A DNA stretch of 21,790 nucleotides from a virus, in IMG/VR virus record IMGVR_UViG_3300009790_000092, positions 1 to 21,790 of that record; one strand, 5' to 3'. Numbering within the stretch: the stretch's first letter is position 1; each line of letters starts with the position of its first letter. Under the pieces are notes generated by a model. That model was not told the DNA's origin. It saw nothing but the letters and a program-made list of their open reading frames with translations, and did no database searches. The translations under genes and the position numbers were made by a program. Below are positions 1 through 17,089 of this stretch, piece after piece.

Positions 1-122
1 TAAAGCATGGAGTAAAAAAAGGTGATGAAGTAGCTTTTCAACCTGAAAGTGAATATGAATTTAGAATTGATGATGTATTAATGTATAGAGTTATGTCTCA
101 ATTCATAACAGTTAAATTATGA
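1..122 (+). CDS. GroES-like co-chaperonin, C-terminal fragment (5' end outside window)
   Basis: The frame that opens at base 3 reads 39 residues to a TGA at 120-122, with no start codon in view. The fragment contains GVKKGDEVAF, then SEYEFRIDD and a hydrophobic end, ITVKL. This is the layout of the last half of GroES-type subunits: a VKxGD(x)V strand, a turn, and a final strand of the beta-barrel. Phage GroES relatives (functional analogues of T4 gp31) cap the host GroEL and help it fold capsid protein, and a place just before the head genes suits that role. The stop overlaps the next start as ATGA, so the two genes are probably translationally coupled. Identity rests on a short fragment. A different small beta-barrel structural protein cannot be excluded. 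Confidence 0.6.
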   Translation, partial: KHGVKKGDEVAFQPESEYEFRIDDVLMYRVMSQFITVKL

Positions 123-622
123 GTATAATCAATATGTATGCGGTAGAGGATGTAATTAAGAATCCAAATAAATATGTGTCTGAAATTTTAAAAGAATCTT
201 TTAAGGATGTAGAGGCTTACAACGAAAAAGGTGAAAAGATTATTTTTAAAAATTTACAAATGAGGGAGGGTGATGAGTTTGCTGAATTTTTAAACCAACA
301 TTTACCTAATTTTGAAATTAAATATAATTTTGTTAGGCAGTCACCTTTGAAACAGAAAGAGCCTAATTTTATTCATAAAGATGATATTATGGGAGATGTA
401 ACTTGTTTGTTGTATTTAAATAATTCTCATCCTCAAGATTATGGCACTACAATTTATGATGATAATAAGAAAAAAACATTTACTTATTATGCGAAATATA
501 ATAGCCTATTGATTTTTGATTCACGATTAAATCATTCTCGTAATATAGAAAATAACTTTGGTGTTGAAGATAAATCAAGATTAGTACAAGTGGCGTTTTT
601 AAAATATAAAAATGGAGATTAA
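119..622 (+). CDS. Fe(II)/2-oxoglutarate-dependent oxygenase (prolyl-hydroxylase-like fold)
   Basis: The 167-residue product carries the facial triad expected of this superfamily. An HxD pair lies at H86/D88 (IHKDD), the distal histidine is H139 (LNHSR), and an arginine at R154 (SRLVQVAF) is suited to binding the 2-oxoglutarate carboxylate. Between them are the predicted core strands (VTCLLYLN, then NSLLIFDSR). Such enzymes couple decarboxylation of 2-oxoglutarate to hydroxylation of a substrate, and they are frequent in marine phages, usually with unknown substrate. The start is fixed by the ATGA overlap with the co-chaperonin gene. A second Met at residue 6 is a weaker alternative. The 3' end overlaps the next gene by 11 bases. 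The triad is seen directly. The substrate is unknown, and a virion or host chaperone-bound protein is only a guess from context. Confidence 0.82.
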   Translation: MSIINMYAVEDVIKNPNKYVSEILKESFKDVEAYNEKGEKIIFKNLQMREGDEFAEFLNQHLPNFEIKYNFVRQSPLKQKEPNFIHKDDIMGDVTCLLYLNNSHPQDYGTTIYDDNKKKTFTYYAKYNSLLIFDSRLNHSRNIENNFGVEDKSRLVQVAFLKYKNGD

Positions 623-5601: not shown

Positions 5602-6681
5602 ATGAATCTAGAAAATATTAAAGTAAGAGAAGTTAGTGCACCTGAAAAAGGGAAAGCTGAAGTCGAACAAGAGCTTTTAGATAAAGCTGAAGAAAAAAAA
5701 GTTGTTGAAGAACAAGAAGTTGTTGAAGAGACAATAGTAGATACTCCTGCATTAGATGATAATACAGTTTTAGAGTATTTAGGAAAAAGATATAATAAGA
5801 CCATCAATTCATTTGATGAGTTGATGCAAGAAAGAGAGGAACAAGAAGCATTGCCTGAAGATGTTTCATCTTTCTTAAAATATAAAAAAGAAACAGGTAG
5901 AGGAATTGAAGACTATGTTCGTCTGAATAGAGACTTTGATGAATTACAACCTGATAATTTGTTAGCTGAGTATTATTTAGCAACTGATGAAGCTATAGAT
6001 ACAGAAGATGTAGACGATTTGTTAGATGAGTTTAGATTTGATGAAGATGTAGATGATGCTAAAGTTGTTAAGAAAAAAAGGTTAGCAAAAAAACGAGCTG
6101 TTGTTCAAGCTAAGAAGTATTTTAATGAACAGAAAGAACAATACAAACAACCCCTTGAGTCAAGTGCGGGAGTTAGTTCTGATGACAATAAAAAACTAGA
6201 AGAGTATGAACAATATCTCAAGAGTGTGAGAAGTAATGAGGAAGCGGCTAGAAAAAAGCAAGATTGGTTTTCTAAAAAAACTGACGAGGTTTTTTCAAGT
6301 GAGTTCAAAGGTTTTGAGTTTACCGTAGGCGATAAGAATGTTACCTATAGTCCGGGTGATGCATCTGAATTGAAATCTAAACAATCTAATGTTTTGAATT
6401 TTATAAACAAGTTTGTAGATGGAGAAACAGGATTGATGAAAGATGCACAGGGATACCACAGAGCTTTATCACTAGCTATGAATCCTGAGAAGTTTGCCAA
6501 ATTCTTTTATGAATTAGGTCAAGCCGAAGGAGTTGAAGATGTTGTCCGTAAAACAAAAAATGTTAGTATGGATATTCGTAAAACTCCCGAAACTGCAACT
6601 ACTCAAGGAGGAATGAAAGTTAGAGCTTTAAACACCGACTCAGGTCGAGGTTTGAAGATTAAAAGTATGAAAAAGAAATAA
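5602..6681 (+). CDS. Probable capsid scaffolding protein
   Basis: This 359-residue protein lies between portal and major capsid genes, the usual place for a scaffold. The N-terminal 60 residues are very acidic and predicted coiled coil (runs of Glu, Lys and Val). The middle (about 105-230) alternates acidic and basic helical stretches, and the C-terminus ends in a strongly basic tail (GRGLKIKSMKKK). Scaffolding proteins are typically highly charged, elongated helical proteins whose basic C-terminal segment binds the capsid protein during procapsid assembly and which then leave or are degraded. No catalytic motif is visible, and I see no protease signature such as a Ser-His pair. The start ATG lies 22 bases after a promoter-like element. 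A head-tail or decoration role is possible but less likely. Confidence 0.65.
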   Translation: MNLENIKVREVSAPEKGKAEVEQELLDKAEEKKVVEEQEVVEETIVDTPALDDNTVLEYLGKRYNKTINSFDELMQEREEQEALPEDVSSFLKYKKETGRGIEDYVRLNRDFDELQPDNLLAEYYLATDEAIDTEDVDDLLDEFRFDEDVDDAKVVKKKRLAKKRAVVQAKKYFNEQKEQYKQPLESSAGVSSDDNKKLEEYEQYLKSVRSNEEAARKKQDWFSKKTDEVFSSEFKGFEFTVGDKNVTYSPGDASELKSKQSNVLNFINKFVDGETGLMKDAQGYHRALSLAMNPEKFAKFFYELGQAEGVEDVVRKTKNVSMDIRKTPETATTQGGMKVRALNTDSGRGLKIKSMKKK

Positions 6682-6704: not shown

Positions 6705-8159
6705 ATGGCAGTATTAGCAAGTCCAACGTTTCAGTTGCAGCCAAGTGCTCAACAGGTAGCGTTGTCGTCAAACTATATTACTAATGCTCAATTTAACTTT
6801 TTGAATCAGTATCTTCCTGATACTTATGAAAAAGAGTTTGAGAGATATGGTAATAGAACTGTTTCATCATTCTTAAGAATGGTAGGAGCAGAAATGCCTT
6901 CTAACTCTGACCTTATCAAATGGGCAGAACAAGGAAGGTTACATATTAAATATGTAAACTGTGTCTTAGGTGGTGCAGGTGCAGGTGCAGCTTCAGAAAC
7001 TTTTACAGTTCCTGCAGCACAAATTGACCCTGCAAGACAACCATCAGGTTCAGTAGCACCGGCAGGTGCAGCAGGGCAAATCGGTATCAGAAAAGGTCAA
7101 ACAGTAATGATTTCTGATGATACAGCAGGTTCTGCATTAAACAACAAAGGTATTGTAACAGCGGTTACAGCTACTACATTTACTGTTGCAATGTATGAAG
7201 CAGCAGGTTTAGCAGCTTACGCAGGTACAGCATCAGTTTTCATCTATGGTTCTGAATTTAAAAAAGGAACTGTTGGAATGGAAGGTGGATTAATATCTAA
7301 CGACTTCATTTTTGAAAACTCTCCAATTATATTAAAAGATAAGTACCAAGTATCAGGTTCTGATATGGCACAAATCGGTTGGATTGAAGTTCAAACAGAA
7401 GATGGAGCAAGTGGATATTTATGGTATCTTAAATCAGAACACGAAACTAGATTACGTTTCGATGATTACTTAGAAACAGCGATGGTAGAAGCTGTACCGG
7501 CAGAAGCAGGTTCAGGTGTTGCTACTCAAGCAGTTTATGCAGATGCAGGTAACAAAGGTTCTGAAGGGGTATTCTACGTTGTAGAAGCAAGAGGTAACGT
7601 TTGGGGTGCAGGAAATCCGGCTGATTTAGCAGGATTTGATAGCATTATTCAAAGATTAGACAAGCAAGGTTCTATTGAAGAAAATGTAATTTTCGTAAAC
7701 AGAGCATTCTCGTTTGACATTGATGATATGTTAGCAGCTCAAAATTCTTATGGTGCAGGTGGTTCTTCATATGGACTATTTGACAATGATGAGGAAATGG
7801 CTCTTAACTTAGGATTTACAGGATTTAGAAGAGGTTACGACTTCTATAAGTCTGAATGGAAATACCTAAATGACCCAACAATGAGAGGTGGATTAGTAGG
7901 TGGAGCAATTAATGGACTATTAGTTCCTGCAGGTTCTACTACAGTTTATGACCAAATTTTAGGTAAAAACGCTAAGAGACCTTATTTACATGTTAGATAC
8001 AGAGCTTCAGAAGCTGAAGACAGACGTTATAAGTCTTGGATTACAGGTTCTGCAGGTGGAGCAACAAACAAAGATTTAGATGCAATGGAAGTTAACTTCC
8101 TTTCTGAAAGATGTGTTTGTACTCTAGGTGCTAACAATTTCTTCTTATTCAAGTCATAA
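6705..8159 (+). CDS. Major capsid protein
   Basis: This 484-residue product builds the icosahedral head. The call rests on position (after portal and scaffold), size, the strong terminator that follows, and signatures I associate with capsid proteins of Bacteroidota podoviruses: the N-terminal segment with YLPDTYEKEFERYGNRTVSS (residues 37-56) and the C-terminal MEVNFLSERCVCTLGANNFF (461-480). The core is expected to have the HK97 fold, although this cannot be proved by eye. Residues about 88-188 form an Ala/Gly-rich, beta-strand-like segment (IRKGQTVMI; GIVTAVTATTFTVA) that looks like an inserted small barrel domain. The DNA for residues 89-95 carries a short GGTGCA triplication. The leader is A/T-rich with no Shine-Dalgarno sequence, so expression probably depends on the upstream element at 5572 and low leader structure. 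Confidence 0.85.
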   Translation: MAVLASPTFQLQPSAQQVALSSNYITNAQFNFLNQYLPDTYEKEFERYGNRTVSSFLRMVGAEMPSNSDLIKWAEQGRLHIKYVNCVLGGAGAGAASETFTVPAAQIDPARQPSGSVAPAGAAGQIGIRKGQTVMISDDTAGSALNNKGIVTAVTATTFTVAMYEAAGLAAYAGTASVFIYGSEFKKGTVGMEGGLISNDFIFENSPIILKDKYQVSGSDMAQIGWIEVQTEDGASGYLWYLKSEHETRLRFDDYLETAMVEAVPAEAGSGVATQAVYADAGNKGSEGVFYVVEARGNVWGAGNPADLAGFDSIIQRLDKQGSIEENVIFVNRAFSFDIDDMLAAQNSYGAGGSSYGLFDNDEEMALNLGFTGFRRGYDFYKSEWKYLNDPTMRGGLVGGAINGLLVPAGSTTVYDQILGKNAKRPYLHVRYRASEAEDRRYKSWITGSAGGATNKDLDAMEVNFLSERCVCTLGANNFFLFKS

Positions 8160-9044: not shown

Positions 9045-9782
9045 ATGATACAACAGGTTTATGATGCTGTTCTTGCTATATTGAATAAGAATAACTACGG
9101 TTACTTATCACCTGCAGATTTTAATTTATATGCCCAACAAGCACAATTAGATTTGTTTGAAGATATATTTTATCAATATAACGCTCAAGTCACTAAAGAA
9201 AACTTAAGAGGGTCAGGTACAGGTTATGCAGATATTAAGAAAGGTATTGTTGAAGTAATTGATATGTTTTCAGTTACTGCAGCATTGAATCATTTAGCTA
9301 ACAATACTTACAGTATGCCATCTACTCCAACCACAGGTTCTGATTTTTATTTTATAAACAAAGTTTTATGCTATGATGCGGCAGGTGTTACTTTTACAGG
9401 TGAAGCAGAGAGAGTAAGTCAAGCTAAAATAACATTATTAAATAATTCTTTATATACAGCACCAACAACTACATACCCTGCTTACACTACTGAAGGTAGT
9501 GTAATGACTGTGTATCCATCATCAATTATACTTGCGGGTCAAGTACAGGCACAATACATAAGATATCCGGCTACTCCACAATGGACATATGTTTCTTTGG
9601 GTGCAGCTCAACAACCACAATTTAGTGTAACAGCTAGTTATCAAGATTTTGAACTACCTCTAGATTATTTTCAAGATTTAGTAAATAAAATATTACAATT
9701 TGCAGGTATGGAAATTAGAGATGGAGAAATAGTCCAATTTGCTTTAGGACAAGAACAGATTGAAAACCAAGATGAACAATAA
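9045..9782 (+). CDS. Head-tail connector / ring-type protein 1
   Basis: This 245-residue protein is first in the tail unit. The N-terminal helical region (VYDAVLAILNKNNYGYLSPA, residues 5-24, then NLYAQQAQLDLFEDIFYQYN) and the distal pattern with TVYPSSI, QAQYIRYP and ELPLDYFQDLVNKILQFAGM (198-217) recall proteins found between capsid and nozzle genes in short-tailed Bacteroidota phages. In podoviruses this slot encodes small adaptor rings that bind below the portal and close the head (compare P22 gp4 or T7 gp11). The C-terminal helix is amphipathic and acidic, fit for ring contacts. It overlaps the next gene by one base (TAATG), so translation is probably coupled. Assignment to adaptor rather than another neck protein is inference. 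Confidence 0.6.
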   Translation: MIQQVYDAVLAILNKNNYGYLSPADFNLYAQQAQLDLFEDIFYQYNAQVTKENLRGSGTGYADIKKGIVEVIDMFSVTAALNHLANNTYSMPSTPTTGSDFYFINKVLCYDAAGVTFTGEAERVSQAKITLLNNSLYTAPTTTYPAYTTEGSVMTVYPSSIILAGQVQAQYIRYPATPQWTYVSLGAAQQPQFSVTASYQDFELPLDYFQDLVNKILQFAGMEIRDGEIVQFALGQEQIENQDEQ

Positions 9783-10705
9783 TGGCTTATATAACAGACT
9801 ATCAATATTATACAAATAACAATACCACTCCGCAAGATGCTAATTGGGGGTCATATCAATATATAAGTTTAGAAGATGTAGTGACAAACTTTCTGTTGAT
9901 GTATAATGGAAACCATTCATTAGTGAACAATGAGGAAAGGTTTAAAATTTTGTTTCATGCAAAAAGAGCAATACAAGAATTAAACTATGATGCATTTAAA
10001 GAAATCAAAGCATTAGAACTTCAAATAACAGATACTCTTAGATATGTTTTACCTCAAGATTATGTAAATTGGGTAAGGGTTTCTATGTATTATGATGGGT
10101 ACTTACGTCCATTGGTAGAAAATGTTCAAATCAATTCTGCAAGTGCGTATCTTCAAGACCATCAAGGTAATATATTGTTTGACCATTTAGGTAATATTTT
10201 AAAACCTGAGTATTCAGAATTGACTAGACAAAGATTAACAGGGGTTCAAAAAACACAATATTTAAATCAAGGTGCTCCATATGACGGATATTGGGGTTAT
10301 TGTTTAGATGGTTTTTGGTATTTTGACATGGCAATAGGAGCGGCATGGGGATTAAATACCGAAACTGCAAATGCAAACCCTACATTTACTATAGATAAAA
10401 AAGCGGGGGTTATAAACTTTAGCTCTGCTATGAATGATAAATTGGCTATTTTAGAATACATCTCAGATGGAATGGAAAATGGAGATGATTCTAAAGTAAC
10501 AGTAAATAAAATGTTTGAAGAGTACATTTATGCTGCTATTGAATTTGGCATCTTAAATAGCAAACTTGGAGTTCAAGAATACATTGTAAATAGAGTTAGA
10601 AAAAGAAAATTAGCTTTATTAAGAAATGCAAAATTAAGACTGAGCAATATACATCCGGGTCGTTTGTTACAAAATATGAGAGGTCAAGATAAATGGATAA
10701 AGTAA
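9782..10705 (+). CDS. Head-tail connector / ring-type protein 2
   Basis: This 307-residue product is marked by segments I associate with a structural protein conserved in crAss-like and other Bacteroidota podoviruses: YISLEDVVTNFLLMYNG (residues 27-43), RFKILFHAKRAIQELNYDAF (53-72) and LPQDYVNWVRVSMYYDGYL (94-112). The C-terminal 60 residues form helices (KMFEEYIYAAIEFGILNSKL) ending in a very basic run (RVRKRKLALLRNAKLRL), plausible for contact with portal or DNA. It starts on the last base of the preceding stop codon and ends two bases before the nozzle gene. It probably forms a neck ring between portal and nozzle, functionally similar to P22 gp4-type tail accessory factors. The precise ring assignment needs a structure comparison. 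Confidence 0.65.
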   Translation: MAYITDYQYYTNNNTTPQDANWGSYQYISLEDVVTNFLLMYNGNHSLVNNEERFKILFHAKRAIQELNYDAFKEIKALELQITDTLRYVLPQDYVNWVRVSMYYDGYLRPLVENVQINSASAYLQDHQGNILFDHLGNILKPEYSELTRQRLTGVQKTQYLNQGAPYDGYWGYCLDGFWYFDMAIGAAWGLNTETANANPTFTIDKKAGVINFSSAMNDKLAILEYISDGMENGDDSKVTVNKMFEEYIYAAIEFGILNSKLGVQEYIVNRVRKRKLALLRNAKLRLSNIHPGRLLQNMRGQDKWIK

Positions 10706-10706
10706 G

Positions 10707-13700
10707 ATGGCAAAATTACAAAGAAATTTCGTACAGGGCAAAATGAATAAAAGCGTTGATGAACGCTTAGTTCCTAATGGACAATACATAGATGCTTTAA
10801 ATGTAAGACTTGGTTCTACTGAAGATTCTGAAATAGGTTCGGTAGAAAACTCTAAGGGAAACACACAGCTTACTACATTAACTTTTAACGGGACGAATCT
10901 GAGCAATCAAGCAAGATGTATTGGTGCTTATGAGGATGGAGCTAATCAAACAATTTATTGGTTTGTACATGACCCTGCGTATACCGTAGGTGCAGCAGGT
11001 AAAATAGATATGATTGTTTCATATGATGCACAAGTTGATACAGTAACTTATCATGTGATTACCATGGATGACGCAACCGGCAACCAAACTACTATATTAA
11101 ATTTCAACCCTACATATTTAATTCATAGTGTAAATAAAATAGAAGATTTACTTTTTTTTACAGATAATTATAATCCTCCGAGATTTATAAATGTTAAAAG
11201 AAACTATCCTAACCCTTTTGGAAATATTGACCAAGTAAGTGCAGAATCATTATTGGTTGTAAAAAAACCCCCTATTACTAGTCCTTCTTTTAATATGTAT
11301 ACTGCTTCAGGTGAAAATACGTTTTTGGAAGACAAACTACTTTGTTTTGCTTATAGATATGAATATGGAGATAATGATTTTTCGGCTACTTCTCAATGGT
11401 CAAAAGCAGCTTTTATTCCAAAAGCATTTGGTATAAGTAGTGCTTCGTATACAAATGAAGGAATGGAAAATAGTAGAAATGGAGTTGAGATAACATTTAA
11501 CACAGGAGGACCTTTAGTAAAAGGAGTAGAGGTTTTATTTAAAAACTCCGGTGATGACGTAATTAAAGTTATTGATAATTTTGATAAAGCTGAATATGGA
11601 TATACTGATAATCAAGATGTTACAATAACTTTTAACAGCAATCAAATATTTACTGTACTACCAACTGACCAAATAGGGAGATTATTTGATAATGTTCCTT
11701 TAAAAGCTGCTACACAAACAATGATTGGTAATAGAATAATATATGGTAATTATTTTGAACAATACAATATGGTTGACTACGCAGGTAGTGAAGTTATTTT
11801 AGATTATTCGATAGCATTAGCAAGTGAAGTTGTAGGTCAATTTGCATTAACTGAAACTAAAATAAGTTCTGATTATACTTTTGACCCCACTTCAGGAACA
11901 CAATCTATAGCTGATTCTGCAGTTACAATAGATTTTACTGACATAAGTTTAGTTCAAGGTGGTTTATTAGAAATAGATATTATTTTTAATCACGCACAAT
12001 TTACAGGTTCAGGAGGACCTACAGCCCAAACTACATCAATAAATATAGGATTTGGATTTAATTTAGTTAATAATTATCCCAATGCTTTAGCATTAGCTAC
12101 CTCAACAGAGTTTATTAATGCTGTTGGAACATCTTCAACAGTATCCACTATAGCTAACGCTTGTACCGGAAACACATGGACAGATACATGGAATTGTGAT
12201 ATGCCAAACAACTTAGATACTTATTTTGCTTACAACTCAGGAATTACTCCTGAAGCGTATCCTAATGTTGGACCTATTAACATAATAACTGACCCTGCAA
12301 ATGTTAATCAGTTTACTCTTCAATTTCCTGCTATGGCTTGGTCGGATTGTGATGCCGCATCCTGTACACCTGCAAATATTGTGTATGAGTATTTTAAAAT
12401 TGGTAGTGTAGATGCACAATATAGAGAGCTTTCTGAAACTGAAAGTTTACATAGTGACTTTGATTATGCAGTCGGTATTGTATATATGGATGAATTTAAT
12501 AGGTCTTCACCTGCATTACTTGCACCTGAAGCGAGTCTTCATGTACCTTGTAGTGCGTCAATGTTGAAAAATAGAATAGATGTTACTATACCTACCGAAA
12601 TGAATCCTCCGGTTTGGGCACATCGATATAAGTTTGTTTTAAAACCAACTAACACCACATATAATACTATATATACTAATATATTTTTTAATGACCCTGC
12701 AACATCTGCTACATATTTATTATTAGAAGGGGAGAATAATGAAAAAGTTAGTGAGGGTCAAAGATTAAAAGTTAAGGCAGATACCAATGGTGCTTTGGGT
12801 AGATGTGCTTATGCTACGATATTAGAAAAAAAATCTCAAGCTGCAGGATTTGTAAAAGTTCCATCTTCTCTCAACCCTTCAACGGATATTGATGCACCTG
12901 CAGGAACATATGCAAAAGTTGTTGCCGATGATTTTACAGTTGTAACTTTAAATGAAGATGGGACAGAAGCATCGGAATTAGCGGTTATAGAAGAAAAACG
13001 TTCTACTTATACCGATACTGCAGGTAATTCTGTATTTAATGCTTTACTAGTAAATACATGGGATGCAGCAAACACAAATTATGTGGACTATGATGTACCT
13101 CAAGGTAGTAGAATTAATTTGTATATTAAGTTTGAAAGAAGAGGTCCGGGTAAAGGTAATGGAAATTGTGAAAGGAGAATATATACTCTTGACTTAAAGT
13201 TAACTTCAAGTTCAACTTATTCTAATTTTGCTGAGTGGTTTAATGGAGATAATATACAAGAATATTTAGATGGAGGAGATTGGGAAGGTGGTGATACAGC
13301 AGCAGGAAATCCTCCTGAAAACATTTATGATTCAACCTTATTAACTGCTGCTTTTGACAGAATACCTACTAGCGGCGAAGCTCAAATGACGGCAAACTCG
13401 GTAACTAAAAATAAATATAAATTTGTAAGAAGTTCAACGGATAACGGTTTATGGTTTTGCACTACAGGAACAGAAAGTTGTAGCGGTGTATTTTCTAAGA
13501 AAAAAAGAAGGTCTTCAAGTGAAATGTCTGTTATTGTTTTTAGAGCTGAAAGCACACTTATATTTGAATCAGAACCACAAGAAGCATTGCCTGATGTATT
13601 TTTTGAAGGAGACCAAAGTTATCCAATCATTAATCCCGGTCTATCTAATGCAAGACATGGCGGAGGGACAGCTACTCAAATAACTAATGGTAATGTAACT

Positions 13701-15278
13701 CAGACGGGTGTTACTGCAGGTTTTATAAAAAGTACATTATATAATTGTTACACCTTTGGAAATGGTGCAGAAAGCTATAAAATATTAGATAGGTTAGGAG
13801 GTGCTGAGTTAGCACCGGGCAATAGGGTTGTAACGGTTTCTCAACAAGATTACAGGGAAATGCATAGATTTGCTGATTTAACATATAGTGGTAGATTTAG
13901 TAATGAGTCAAATATAAACCGACTTAATGAGTTCAACTTAAGTATCTCTAATTTTAAAATCCTTGAAGATTCTTTCGGTTCTATTCAAAAATTATTTGGT
14001 AGAGAAACCGATGTATTAGTATTACAAGAGGATAAGATTTCATATGTACTTGCAGGTAAAAATTTATTATCGGATTCAGCAGGTGGAGGTCAAATAACTT
14101 CTGTGCCTGAAATATTAGGTACGCAAATAGCTAGAATTGAAGAGTTTGGTATTAGTCATAATCCGGAAAGTTTTGTTTGTTATGGAAGTGAAAAATATTT
14201 TACTGACGCAAAAAGAGGTGCAGTAATTTTATTATCAGGAGTAACTGCACAATCTGAACAACTTGCAGTAATATCTGAATTAGGTATGCGTGGATGGTTT
14301 AGAGATTTATTTATAGAGAGTTTTTCAACTCAAAAACTTGGTGGATACGACCCTTATATGAATGAATATGTGTTGTCCAATAACTGTATTGAGTTACCTC
14401 AAATTCCACAAGTTGAAAATTGCGGTATACAATTGACATACAATAAGTTAAAAGCAGCAAATACACCAAGAAGTTTTACAGTTGAGCTTGGACAACCGCT
14501 AGGTGAGGTGACACTAACATATACTGTACCGATTTTAGCTGCAGGTTTAACATTTAAAATAGATGTTGTATACGCAGGAGTTACTACTTCCACAGGTGAT
14601 GTAACTGTAGGAGGTACTTTAACATTTGATAAAAATGATTTATCAATCAACACTTGTCTAGTTACTCTAACAGTTGGTGATGTCGGGTCTACGGGGGGTC
14701 AAATAGATGGTCTAAACCTTGGTGTTAGTTGTCCATCACCCAACACAATAACAGTAAAAGCTATAGTTATTACTACAGACGCAAACGCAGGTTTAACAAT
14801 TAGAAGGGGTTATAATTACACCGACAATAGTGTTTCTTATCCATCCAATATTGAACAGGTAATAATGACATCAGGTACTTCAACTCCATTAGTATCTAGC
14901 TTTTATAGCATTACAGGGTATCAAGGAATTAATTCTATTCCTGTTAATGGTTCAACAGTACAAATATTTTCTTTAAAGAAACCTGACGACACTTATACTT
15001 TTGACGTAACAAGTGATAGATTTGGGTATTTAAGAAGTGCAACAAATTATAATAATAATAGTACCGATTTAAATAATTTATTAACAGCTATAACAAGTGC
15101 TAGTAATTGGTTGACTACCAACACATCACTAGCTCCGGGTAAATATTATGGGGATTTTACTATGGATGCCACTAGCAATGATTATTTATATTTGGTATAT
15201 GATTTAAGAACAACTACAAATGTAAGTTTGTGTTACTCAAACACTTCATTTAACGACGCATGTTGTGGGTGTTCATAA
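10707..15278 (+). CDS. Giant nozzle / tail stabilisation protein, apparently lacking its usual C-terminal domain
   Basis: At 1,523 residues this is the largest gene in view. The N-terminus (KMNKSVDERLVPNGQYIDAL at 12-31, then NVRLGSTEDSEIGSVENSKG) and later segments (LLFFTDNYNPPRFINVKRNY near 150; a GISHNPESF...KYFTDAKRGAV block at about 1150-1175; GMRGWFRDLF near 1193; GGYDPYMNEYVL near 1212) fit the beta-propeller nozzle family related in role to P22 gp10 and T7 gp12. These proteins form the tube of the short tail through which DNA leaves. After about residue 1225 the sequence changes to Thr/Ser/Val-rich beta domains and ends in a cysteine cluster (C1509, then ACCGC at 1518-1522). In relatives I expect the propeller to continue after the GGYDP segment. 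That continuation seems to be encoded separately at 16256. Confidence 0.8.
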   Translation: MAKLQRNFVQGKMNKSVDERLVPNGQYIDALNVRLGSTEDSEIGSVENSKGNTQLTTLTFNGTNLSNQARCIGAYEDGANQTIYWFVHDPAYTVGAAGKIDMIVSYDAQVDTVTYHVITMDDATGNQTTILNFNPTYLIHSVNKIEDLLFFTDNYNPPRFINVKRNYPNPFGNIDQVSAESLLVVKKPPITSPSFNMYTASGENTFLEDKLLCFAYRYEYGDNDFSATSQWSKAAFIPKAFGISSASYTNEGMENSRNGVEITFNTGGPLVKGVEVLFKNSGDDVIKVIDNFDKAEYGYTDNQDVTITFNSNQIFTVLPTDQIGRLFDNVPLKAATQTMIGNRIIYGNYFEQYNMVDYAGSEVILDYSIALASEVVGQFALTETKISSDYTFDPTSGTQSIADSAVTIDFTDISLVQGGLLEIDIIFNHAQFTGSGGPTAQTTSINIGFGFNLVNNYPNALALATSTEFINAVGTSSTVSTIANACTGNTWTDTWNCDMPNNLDTYFAYNSGITPEAYPNVGPINIITDPANVNQFTLQFPAMAWSDCDAASCTPANIVYEYFKIGSVDAQYRELSETESLHSDFDYAVGIVYMDEFNRSSPALLAPEASLHVPCSASMLKNRIDVTIPTEMNPPVWAHRYKFVLKPTNTTYNTIYTNIFFNDPATSATYLLLEGENNEKVSEGQRLKVKADTNGALGRCAYATILEKKSQAAGFVKVPSSLNPSTDIDAPAGTYAKVVADDFTVVTLNEDGTEASELAVIEEKRSTYTDTAGNSVFNALLVNTWDAANTNYVDYDVPQGSRINLYIKFERRGPGKGNGNCERRIYTLDLKLTSSSTYSNFAEWFNGDNIQEYLDGGDWEGGDTAAGNPPENIYDSTLLTAAFDRIPTSGEAQMTANSVTKNKYKFVRSSTDNGLWFCTTGTESCSGVFSKKKRRSSSEMSVIVFRAESTLIFESEPQEALPDVFFEGDQSYPIINPGLSNARHGGGTATQITNGNVTQTGVTAGFIKSTLYNCYTFGNGAESYKILDRLGGAELAPGNRVVTVSQQDYREMHRFADLTYSGRFSNESNINRLNEFNLSISNFKILEDSFGSIQKLFGRETDVLVLQEDKISYVLAGKNLLSDSAGGGQITSVPEILGTQIARIEEFGISHNPESFVCYGSEKYFTDAKRGAVILLSGVTAQSEQLAVISELGMRGWFRDLFIESFSTQKLGGYDPYMNEYVLSNNCIELPQIPQVENCGIQLTYNKLKAANTPRSFTVELGQPLGEVTLTYTVPILAAGLTFKIDVVYAGVTTSTGDVTVGGTLTFDKNDLSINTCLVTLTVGDVGSTGGQIDGLNLGVSCPSPNTITVKAIVITTDANAGLTIRRGYNYTDNSVSYPSNIEQVIMTSGTSTPLVSSFYSITGYQGINSIPVNGSTVQIFSLKKPDDTYTFDVTSDRFGYLRSATNYNNNSTDLNNLLTAITSASNWLTTNTSLAPGKYYGDFTMDATSNDYLYLVYDLRTTTNVSLCYSNTSFNDACCGCS

Positions 15279-15453
15279 AATAAAATAAATGGGATTAACA
15301 GTATCAAAATATTTAGACGGACCAACTTTTGCAACAGCAACTGCTGTGTATGATGATGCAACTTTAACAACAAAAGCTGCTGATGGTTGGTATATGGAAA
15401 ACAATAAATACCGAAGACAAAGTGCCGGAGTGCTTCAAGGACTTGTAGTTTGT
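15231..15453 (+). repeat. Tail module copy 1, divided across a gene boundary
   Basis: The region joins the last 15 codons of the nozzle gene (CYSNTSFNDACCGCS) and residues 1-55 of the next product. Read together as protein, they resemble the contiguous module at 16015-16236. A TAA, a 10-base spacer and a change of reading frame separate the halves. Similarity was judged by eye on about eight shared positions. Confidence 0.45.
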
Positions 15454-16245
15454 CCAAGTTGTAATGAAACTTGTAGAACAAATGGTCAAGCACCATTATC
15501 AGCAGGTGAGGGAACAATTGCAATAGACCAAGGAGCAGGGGTTTATTATGTTACTTTTCAAACCGGAACAGGAATAGGTACATTGAGAACTTTTATTGAT
15601 GATTTATCAACCAAAGCGTATGGTATACAGATTAGTCATAATAGCACACTTTATAATAAATGGTCAGATGTAGATAACGGCTATCAATCTCCTGCAAGTG
15701 GATTAAATGCTATATGGTTAGGAGATTCATCTATAGGACCTACTGCAGGAACAGCGTACTCAAGCCAACCAACATTTATTTGGGATGGAGCTGCATGGGT
15801 TTCAGGTAGCACAGTAGCTTATAGTGTTAATAGTGCCGGAACTAATTATACAGCAAATCCGGGGATTACTATGGCGGCTGTACCAAAAACATTTTCTAGC
15901 AACACTACATTAACTCTGACAATATTTAGACCTCCGATAGTAGGGATGGGAGATACTAATGTAGGGCTTATGTGTCCTGACTTACTACCTGCTATACCAT
16001 ATAATACTACTGTATTTGCAAATGCAGTTGATGCATGTAATGCAATAGGAACAACGGGGTCTTTTTATTCCGCAGGTTTTGGTTCATCAAATGCTTTAGC
16101 ACAATTAAATGGATTTGCATTTACAAATTATTATGGAACTACAGCACTTAGTGCAGGTTATTATAAAATTAGTAGTGGAGGTAATGGGTATATGCAAGTA
16201 TCTAGTAACGGAACAATTATAGCTATAGGTAGTTGTCCTCCTTAA
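15289..16245 (+). CDS. Modular cysteine-containing tail protein
   Basis: This 318-residue, Gly/Ser/Thr/Ala-rich beta protein follows the nozzle by 10 bases. Residues 8-55 (YLDGPTFATATAVYDDATLT, then DGWY...YRR...VVC) and residues 243-316 (DACN at 248-251, LNGFAF, TTALSAGYYK, NGTIIAIGSC) look like two copies of one module of the type found in tail fibre or tail tip proteins of Bacteroidota phages. Between them (about 74-190) lies a further beta domain (GVYYVTFQTGTGIGTLRTFI; PTFIWDGAAWV). Cysteines cluster at C55, C58 and C62. The first module lacks the cysteine-containing beginning that the second has; that beginning is present at the end of the preceding gene. It is probably a tail surface or receptor-contact component. 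No enzymatic motif is visible. Confidence 0.6.
   Translation: MGLTVSKYLDGPTFATATAVYDDATLTTKAADGWYMENNKYRRQSAGVLQGLVVCPSCNETCRTNGQAPLSAGEGTIAIDQGAGVYYVTFQTGTGIGTLRTFIDDLSTKAYGIQISHNSTLYNKWSDVDNGYQSPASGLNAIWLGDSSIGPTAGTAYSSQPTFIWDGAAWVSGSTVAYSVNSAGTNYTANPGITMAAVPKTFSSNTTLTLTIFRPPIVGMGDTNVGLMCPDLLPAIPYNTTVFANAVDACNAIGTTGSFYSAGFGSSNALAQLNGFAFTNYYGTTALSAGYYKISSGGNGYMQVSSNGTIIAIGSCPP
16015..16236 (+). repeat. Tail module copy 2, contiguous
   Basis: It encodes residues 243-316 of the tail protein: DACN, then a LxGxxF segment, TTALSAGYYK, and a closing NGTIIAIGSC. It is the intact counterpart of the divided copy at 15231-15453. The resemblance is at protein level; the DNA copies are well diverged, so this is not a recent duplication. 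Confidence 0.45.
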
Positions 16246-16255
16246 AATTAAAAAT

Positions 16256-17089
16256 ATGAGTTGTCAAAATTACACATTAAGTTATAGTAGTGGAGTTCAA
16301 GGGTTTCCATCCTTTTATTCTTTTCATCCAAATTATATGATAGGAATGAATAATTATTTTTATTCCTTTAATCAAGGAAATATATATAGGCATAATTCCA
16401 ATACTGTGAGAAATCAGTATTATGGTACAAATTATAGCTCTACAATAACAAATGTTTTTAATGATAATCCATTAGAGAGTAAGCTGTTTAAAACTATATG
16501 TTTAGAATCAGATTCCCCTTGGGATGTAGATTTTACAAGCGATGTTCAAACCACAGGTTTTATTGCGGATGAATCTTTTGTGAAAAAAGAAGGTGCGTAT
16601 TTTTCGTATTTAAGAACTGAAGGTGCTACAACAGGTTCAGGTACGCCGATAGATTCTAAACAATATCCTTTACGTTCTATTCAGGGAATTATGAATAGTG
16701 CAGCACGAGGAGGTACGGTAGGGAATCCAATAGTACAATTTGATATAGGAGTTAATGCTAATATGGCAACATATATTAATCCACAAATTGTAGTAAATGA
16801 CTATTTGTATTGGAGTGATGTAACTCAAGCAAATCCTGAACTTACTTACGCAGGGCAAATACAATCTATTTCATATTCAGCTATAAATGGTATAGTTTCA
16901 ATATTAATAGACGCTGCAGGAGCTGCGGTTATTCCTGCAGGAACTCTGTATTTTGCAGCTGTTAAAAACCAAATTGCAGAATCTTATGGTATCTTAGGAC
17001 ATTATGGCAGGTTTAAGTTAACTAACAATACAACACAAGCTACAGAACTATTTGCAGTTCAGTCAGATGTTATGAAAAGTTATCCTTAA
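16256..17089 (+). CDS. Nozzle C-terminal propeller segment encoded as a separate tail protein
   Basis: The 277-residue product opens with YTLSYSSGVQGFPSFYSFHP (residues 6-25), MIGMNNYFYSFNQGNIYRHN (28-47) and a YYGTNY...NPLESKLFKTICLES run, followed by FVKKEGAYFSYLR (108-120). It ends with IAESYGILGHYGRFKLTN near 235-252 and an ELFAV...MKSYP close. I associate this order with the C-terminal part of nozzle or stabilisation proteins in crAss-like and related phages, where it follows the GGYDP...EYVL segment in the same chain. Here it is its own gene, about 2 kb downstream of that segment. It should assemble with the 1,523-residue protein into the tail nozzle. The ATG is preceded by an A-rich, SD-less leader. 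Its homology is inferred from recalled sequence patterns. Confidence 0.65.
   Translation: MSCQNYTLSYSSGVQGFPSFYSFHPNYMIGMNNYFYSFNQGNIYRHNSNTVRNQYYGTNYSSTITNVFNDNPLESKLFKTICLESDSPWDVDFTSDVQTTGFIADESFVKKEGAYFSYLRTEGATTGSGTPIDSKQYPLRSIQGIMNSAARGGTVGNPIVQFDIGVNANMATYINPQIVVNDYLYWSDVTQANPELTYAGQIQSISYSAINGIVSILIDAAGAAVIPAGTLYFAAVKNQIAESYGILGHYGRFKLTNNTTQATELFAVQSDVMKSYP

Follow-up and report, generated by a model that had tools for sequence, protein, structure and literature searches.

The stretch of DNA analysed here (the window) is a virus contig of 21,790 bases. Its structural block runs in the order terminase, portal, further structural genes, N-terminal muzzle gene, gap gene, C-terminal muzzle gene and a small gene assigned to phrog_17252. 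Three separate open reading frames, coding for 1523, 318 and 277 amino acids, span positions 10707-17089, the coordinates for which a nozzle protein split into separate genes had originally been predicted. The solved member of the muzzle family is a single polypeptide; in the window this region holds three genes. The features of the locus are as follows.

9782..10705, + strand: upstream structural gene, 307 aa; phrog_13977 virion structural protein, a conserved neighbour of the muzzle
10707..14378, + strand: muzzle N core, residues 1-1224; Pfam crAss_MUZ, phrog_14478, with a model of the equivalent part of a relative (L058); predicted to comprise the end that joins the ring, blades 1-5 of the propeller, two opening strands of the blade after these and an Ig/crass-type insertion
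14379..15278, + strand: post-cut tail of the N chain, residues 1225-1523; conserved beta-rich module of about 260 aa
15289..16245, + strand: gap gene, 318 aa; modular tail/adhesin-like protein whose position is kept in close relatives
16256..17089, + strand: muzzle C piece, 277 aa; Pfam crAss_MUZ_C, with a model predicting the remaining propeller strands and the C-terminus
16256..16318, + strand: strands one and two of the C piece, residues 1-21; probable partner side of the cut hairpin
16634..16981, + strand: small beta-barrel within the C piece, residues 127-242; VIA-align matches to barrel domains

A homologue of the 307-aa gene sits immediately 5' of the muzzle in the relatives checked. 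The tail of the N chain has a Cys-rich C-terminus (...DACCGCS).

The 1523-aa product matched the Pfam family crAss_MUZ (PF25731) with an E value of 4.9e-13 (48.6 bits, cut-off 27) and phrog_14478 with an E value of 2.6e-202; no nozzle family besides crAss_MUZ was present among its Pfam matches. The 277-aa product matched crAss_MUZ_C (PF25729; E 2.8e-16, 60.1 bits, cut-off 27), phrog_38031 (E 3.8e-63) and phrog_18548, and in the window the crAss_MUZ_C domain was found on this separate product, off the 1523-aa chain. The motif GGYDPYMNEYVL occupies residues 1212-1223 of the 1523-aa product, and SGVQGFPSFYSF, MIGMNNYFYSFNQGNIYRHN and the ESYGILGHYGRF..ELFAV..MKSYP end are all on the 277-aa product. 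These results confirm that the 1523-aa product is the N-terminal part of the crassvirus muzzle (nozzle) and the 277-aa product its C-terminal part. The long protein had been taken for a podoviral nozzle, an assignment that can now be refined from a generic nozzle to the crassvirus muzzle (crAss_MUZ). The motifs and the crAss_MUZ_C match also locate the missing piece where it had been expected, in the gene at 16256 with a modular tail gene in between. The open reading frames, the motif positions, the two Pfam families and the existence of fused homologues (see below) all bear out the split itself. Searches of PDB sequences with either product, or with the alignment of the C piece, gave no muzzle match, the products being too divergent for this; the WD40 proteins matched by the C piece in the same database were discarded as weak, repeat-driven matches.

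A structure model of the C piece was made from the window sequence with an alignment of 90 sequences. Its mean pLDDT was 84, lower at residues 1-60 and mostly high beyond. Strands were modelled at residues 7-11 and 16-21, where block pLDDT in isolation was 48-65. Low confidence over the first ~60 residues would be expected for strands modelled without their partner, and is compatible with a different arrangement as well. The best PDB matches of the model were the two entries (7qok/7qol; VIA Z 9.3 and 8.9) of the muzzle of phicrAss001, gp44, the solved crassvirus muzzle, a single 1371-residue chain (PDB 7QOK/7QOL; Bayfield et al. 2023, PMC10172136). The Foldseek E value of the C piece against gp44 was modest, 1.7e-3. 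By structure alignment the model covers gp44 1181/1224-1371, and in profile comparison the C piece aligns with gp44 from residue 1196-1197 onward, with the barrel (residues 127-242) outside the profile match. With the phicrAss001 muzzle as best PDB match, the 277-residue protein did not turn out to belong to a different family. The fold of the barrel (16634-16981) resembles the barrel domains of the Sen1/Upf1 helicases (Z 6-7), a likeness that probably reflects a common barrel.

The N core was modelled on residues 1-1173 of the relative L058, which is 48% identical to the window. This model (pLDDT 87.7) aligned to gp44 residues 32-1197 and ended there (Foldseek E 8e-20, Z 23; 544 residues in the whole-chain alignment). 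It also aligned to residues 28-308 of the 471 of P22 gp10, with Z 17.9 over 250 residues; the nozzles P22 gp10 and T7 gp12 are single chains without the crass-type insertion. In a 333-residue propeller chain of a G-protein complex, presumably Gbeta, residues 32-289 were covered, and by the blade limits known for Gbeta the end at 289 corresponds to the middle of blade 6. Of the seven blades, the L058 core spans roughly five and a half, and its last strands are at 1159-1163 and 1168-1172. Since the N model ends with two blade strands and the C piece opens with two more, the cut most likely lies inside a blade, about the sixth, at a hairpin turn; on gp44 it falls at residue ~1197, at the turn of a propeller beta-hairpin. 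In the L058 N-core and window C-piece models each half by itself leaves the propeller incomplete, and the ring-joining domain plus the seven-bladed propeller are reached only by both products together (L058 N core 32-1197, window C piece up to 1371). A complete closed propeller made by the long protein alone, the outcome that would have spoken against the original prediction, was not observed: the L058 N-core model, built without the tail, stops at gp44 1197.

We consider it probable that the tail-tip muzzle of this crAss-like phage is built from two polypeptides forming one propeller. The proposal that two chains now build one propeller stands in so far as the halves are complementary on gp44 in single-chain models and the C gene is conserved; that the two chains meet and assemble together in the virion we infer from these models. 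Alternatively, the N chain could close its own propeller with the post-cut tail, the C protein being a tail-tip accessory that keeps only the fold. Conservation of the tail module directly after the cut in most split chains would agree with this, as would the extra barrel of the C piece, and the models cover the N core without the tail. However, the C piece retains its sequence and structure match to gp44, including the strands beside the cut, and the tail has no profile similarity to the C piece (hhalign 0.4% and 0.2%). In addition, the tails of several split chains are unrelated and short (~95-120 aa; BACON-like in L109, for example), too different to replace about 1.5 blades alike. A self-closing N chain is therefore unlikely, and the two-chain propeller is preferred.

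Relatives were collected from annotated phage genomes and by scanning viral contigs four times, using the C piece and its alignments as queries. The survey gave about 250 loci, with some contigs counted twice, in a sample drawn by similarity to the window plus a few phages and not meant as a census. After removal of C pieces at least 95% identical, 134 distinct loci showing both sides of the seam remained, 123 of them split and 11 fused. Among the split loci the gap held no gene in 33, one gene in 75 and two to five genes in 15, and the median length of the post-cut tail of the N chain was 361 aa. Of the 12 closest IMG/VR contigs, all encode the C piece as a gene of its own and 11 keep the three-gene order of the window. 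The split is also present in the phage genomes MW202828 and phi13:2; phi13:2, its sister phages and a genome contig of Aquimarina longa show it with no gene in the gap. Both pieces form one gene in Cellulophaga phi38:1, Calle_1, Flavobacterium elemoF and Tenacibaculum Gundel_1; in fused homologues an NEYVL-type strand is connected to a TLSYS-type strand by a short linker of about 4-22 aa, and phicrAss001 gp44 continues straight into the C-terminal domain within its single 1371-aa chain. The split is fixed in a large environmental crAss-like group, and these observations support the view that it is clade-wide and old, and not peculiar to the phage of the window.

That the coding pieces flanking the gap join cleanly in fused relatives could also mean that the protein is continuous and split in the DNA only, being joined by RNA splicing (intron), protein splicing (intein) or recoding. 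This is very improbable. No Rfam family, introns included, was detected in the window, and no intein was found among the Pfam matches. Across loci the contents of the gap are unrelated and its length varies from about 0 to 5.2 kb, and in every close relative checked a separate start for the C gene lies just behind the gap gene's stop.

All three genes of the window locus are under purifying selection. For the C piece, dN/dS was 0.09-0.17 between the window and five relatives with 75-82% C-piece identity. The gap gene evolves faster, being 50% identical to its counterparts in L012, L016 and L018 as against 75-80% for the C piece, 80% in the case of L012. This pattern is in keeping with the C piece being a constrained part of the propeller and the gap product a variable one that probably faces the surface. 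The idea that the split stems from errors of annotation, sequencing or assembly, or from the decay of a pseudogene, can be dismissed almost outright: although breaks do occur nearby (a frameshift at another place in Panino, an in-frame TGA in the N gene of L017), many samples have yielded more than 100 distinct split loci, all three genes are under the selection just described, and assembly error is excluded because the order is the same in 11 of the 12 closest contigs and the split is present in phage genomes.

The muzzle of Maribacter phage Panino (L006), annotated as two genes, was rejected as another case of the split. Its frameshift lies near a T run at about 7625-7650, upstream of the seam, which is fused, and is probably a sequencing error or mutation. 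In the twelfth of the closest contigs (L017) a single extra in-frame TGA is located further upstream in the N gene, at 5649-5651, and the closely related L016 is open there.

A post-cut module of ~260 aa was homologous in 201 of the 218 N-chain tails examined, and the modules of the phi13:2 type and the window type matched each other with an hhalign probability of 99.9% (E 4e-35). At the turn where the split chains are cut, the fused chains L139 and L160 have different inserts, 137 and 153 aa long, a state expected before the split. The shared post-cut module and these fused chains with inserts support the part of the original prediction according to which tail modules were inserted into an ancestral nozzle gene that then broke up. 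In L109 (4887-9807), L197 and L205 a separate head of ~90 aa with the motif MCxCIKI is on the C chain; by inspection the N chain of these loci has a BACON-like tail, and the extra domains on either side of the cut are unrelated. In L103, L104 and L183 the post-cut tail runs into a DSSGS segment, common to all three, that on inspection resembles a von Willebrand factor A (MIDAS) domain.

On a tree of the core plus the C piece, whose root is unsure because of the long branches of gp44, L160 and L007, at least four changes between split and fused states were needed. An AU test rejected a single split clade weakly (p 0.027). Tree and test thus speak against a single split clade, yet the post-cut module is homologous across the main split lineages. 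The shared module suggests common ancestry or transfer, so that either one origin with later re-fusions or a transfer of the module may account for the pattern.

The N-terminus of the gap gene is a ~58-aa module of the pattern 'YYxDG..R.Q..G.L..C.SC'. Because of its modular make-up and its location, the gene product is a putative adhesin. In a subgroup of the relatives the gap holds enzyme genes: 2OG-Fe(II) oxygenases, a protein of the hydroxyproline O-arabinosyltransferase family (PF23452, 33 bits, cut-off 23.9), other glycosyltransferases, a GDP-mannose-dehydratase-like protein, carbamoyltransferases and a radical SAM protein. The oxygenase is prolyl-hydroxylase-like, with HxD..H motifs. The muzzle chains of enzyme-bearing loci have proline-rich linkers, e.g. 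PTPTPTP. A gap oxygenase was present in 6 of the 8 loci with at least 10 prolines per 30 residues in the N tail or C head and in 0 of the 208 others, counts that come from close kin and so do not represent many independent cases. A search with the arabinosyltransferase as query found 17 loci, each of which has an oxygenase nearby as well; a gene matching the muzzle C profile then follows in 14, the remaining three being loci where the contig stops or the next gene is truncated. The natural reading of these gene contents would be that the phage hydroxylates and arabinosylates its own muzzle linkers, a predicted extensin-like glycosylation of the tail tip. The literature search found no phage paper on hydroxylation or arabinosylation of such linkers.

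The oxygenase and the PF23452-family gene lie between the muzzle halves, beside proline-rich linkers, at L047:4588-8590, L071:5459-8189, L036:6942-8947 and in L250-L266; the copy of the arabinosyltransferase in L036 is without a Pfam match and is related by sequence. Carbamoyltransferases (in L094 by inspection), a radical SAM/SPASM protein, GlcNAc- and DXD-type glycosyltransferases and a GDP-mannose-dehydratase-like protein were seen in the gaps at L082:5658-7094, L094:5826-7370, L025:6450-8226, L078:4296-7810 and L047:5874-6890. At the left end of the window (119-622) a 167-aa product resembles a 2OG-Fe(II) oxygenase (PF13640, E 7e-4, below the cut-off; phrog_1644).

The original prediction had offered insertion followed by break-up, or two chains in one propeller, as alternatives; most likely both hold, as two stages of one history, the order of which would be as follows. 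The ancestral muzzle would have been a single chain, as in phi38:1 and gp44, with one seven-bladed propeller holding the exit gate. A beta module inserted in the tight turn between neighbouring strands of about the sixth blade, as the shared module and the fused relatives with inserts suggest, and the insert then gained a stop and a restart, splitting the gene, the outcome of which is seen in the present loci. The N chain would now provide the ring-joining region and about five blades, and would begin the cut blade with its first half before leaving the propeller with its extra module; the C chain would begin at the next strand, finish the cut blade and add the last one. From the models and the conservation, the chains are expected to pair during folding and to close each of six propellers, and with the chain ends placed at a turn on the surface, the propeller may tolerate the cut. 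The gap could then have become a site for more modules, presumably adhesin-like, and for the enzyme genes found there, so that the tail tip would combine a gate with exchangeable host-contact parts. The full reading, a two-chain gate cut inside one blade in which the cut serves as a port for gene exchange (adhesin modules and, in one subgroup, a linker-glycosylating cassette of prolyl-hydroxylase and hydroxyproline-arabinosyltransferase), is put forward tentatively, as a real possibility.

In the literature searched, the split is not described. The muzzle is regarded as highly conserved among crassviruses, with a gate believed to control ejection. A ring that needs a second chain for closure would offer a testable handle on the assembly and opening of this gate. 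The gap marks where these phages swap tail-tip parts and should point to host-range determinants in uncultured phages. For annotation some caution is advisable, as the C-terminal part of the propeller is left as an unnamed protein in this group.

Among known systems, Caudoviricetes sp. ctfjg026 (MW202828, Manatee Spring) has the same three-gene order and N and C pieces about 42% identical to those of the window, but a shorter gap gene (183 aa) whose similarity is confined to the first ~58 residues. In phi13:2 (gp120/gp121), as in phi18:3, phi19:3 and phi46:3, the same cut is followed by a homologous module, and a separate gene, annotated as a structural protein, again encodes the C piece; these phages differ from the window in lacking a gap gene and, by inspection, in an extra cadherin-like region on the N chain. 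The muzzles of phi38:1, Calle_1, elemoF 6-3D and Gundel_1 are homologous to that of the window over both halves, but are one chain, with the turn free of an insertion. The P22 gp10 and T7 gp12 nozzles share the propeller and the ring-joining fold; they too are single chains, and lack the crass-type insertion according to the phicrAss001 paper (PMC10172136). The best structural match of both halves is gp44, which has the same ring-joining domain, propeller and C-terminal domain and probably also shares its large propeller insertion, made up in this family of IG1, IG2 and the crass fold, whereas the muzzle of the window is cut at the equivalent of residue ~1197, carries a module of ~300 aa on the N chain and has a further gene in the gap.
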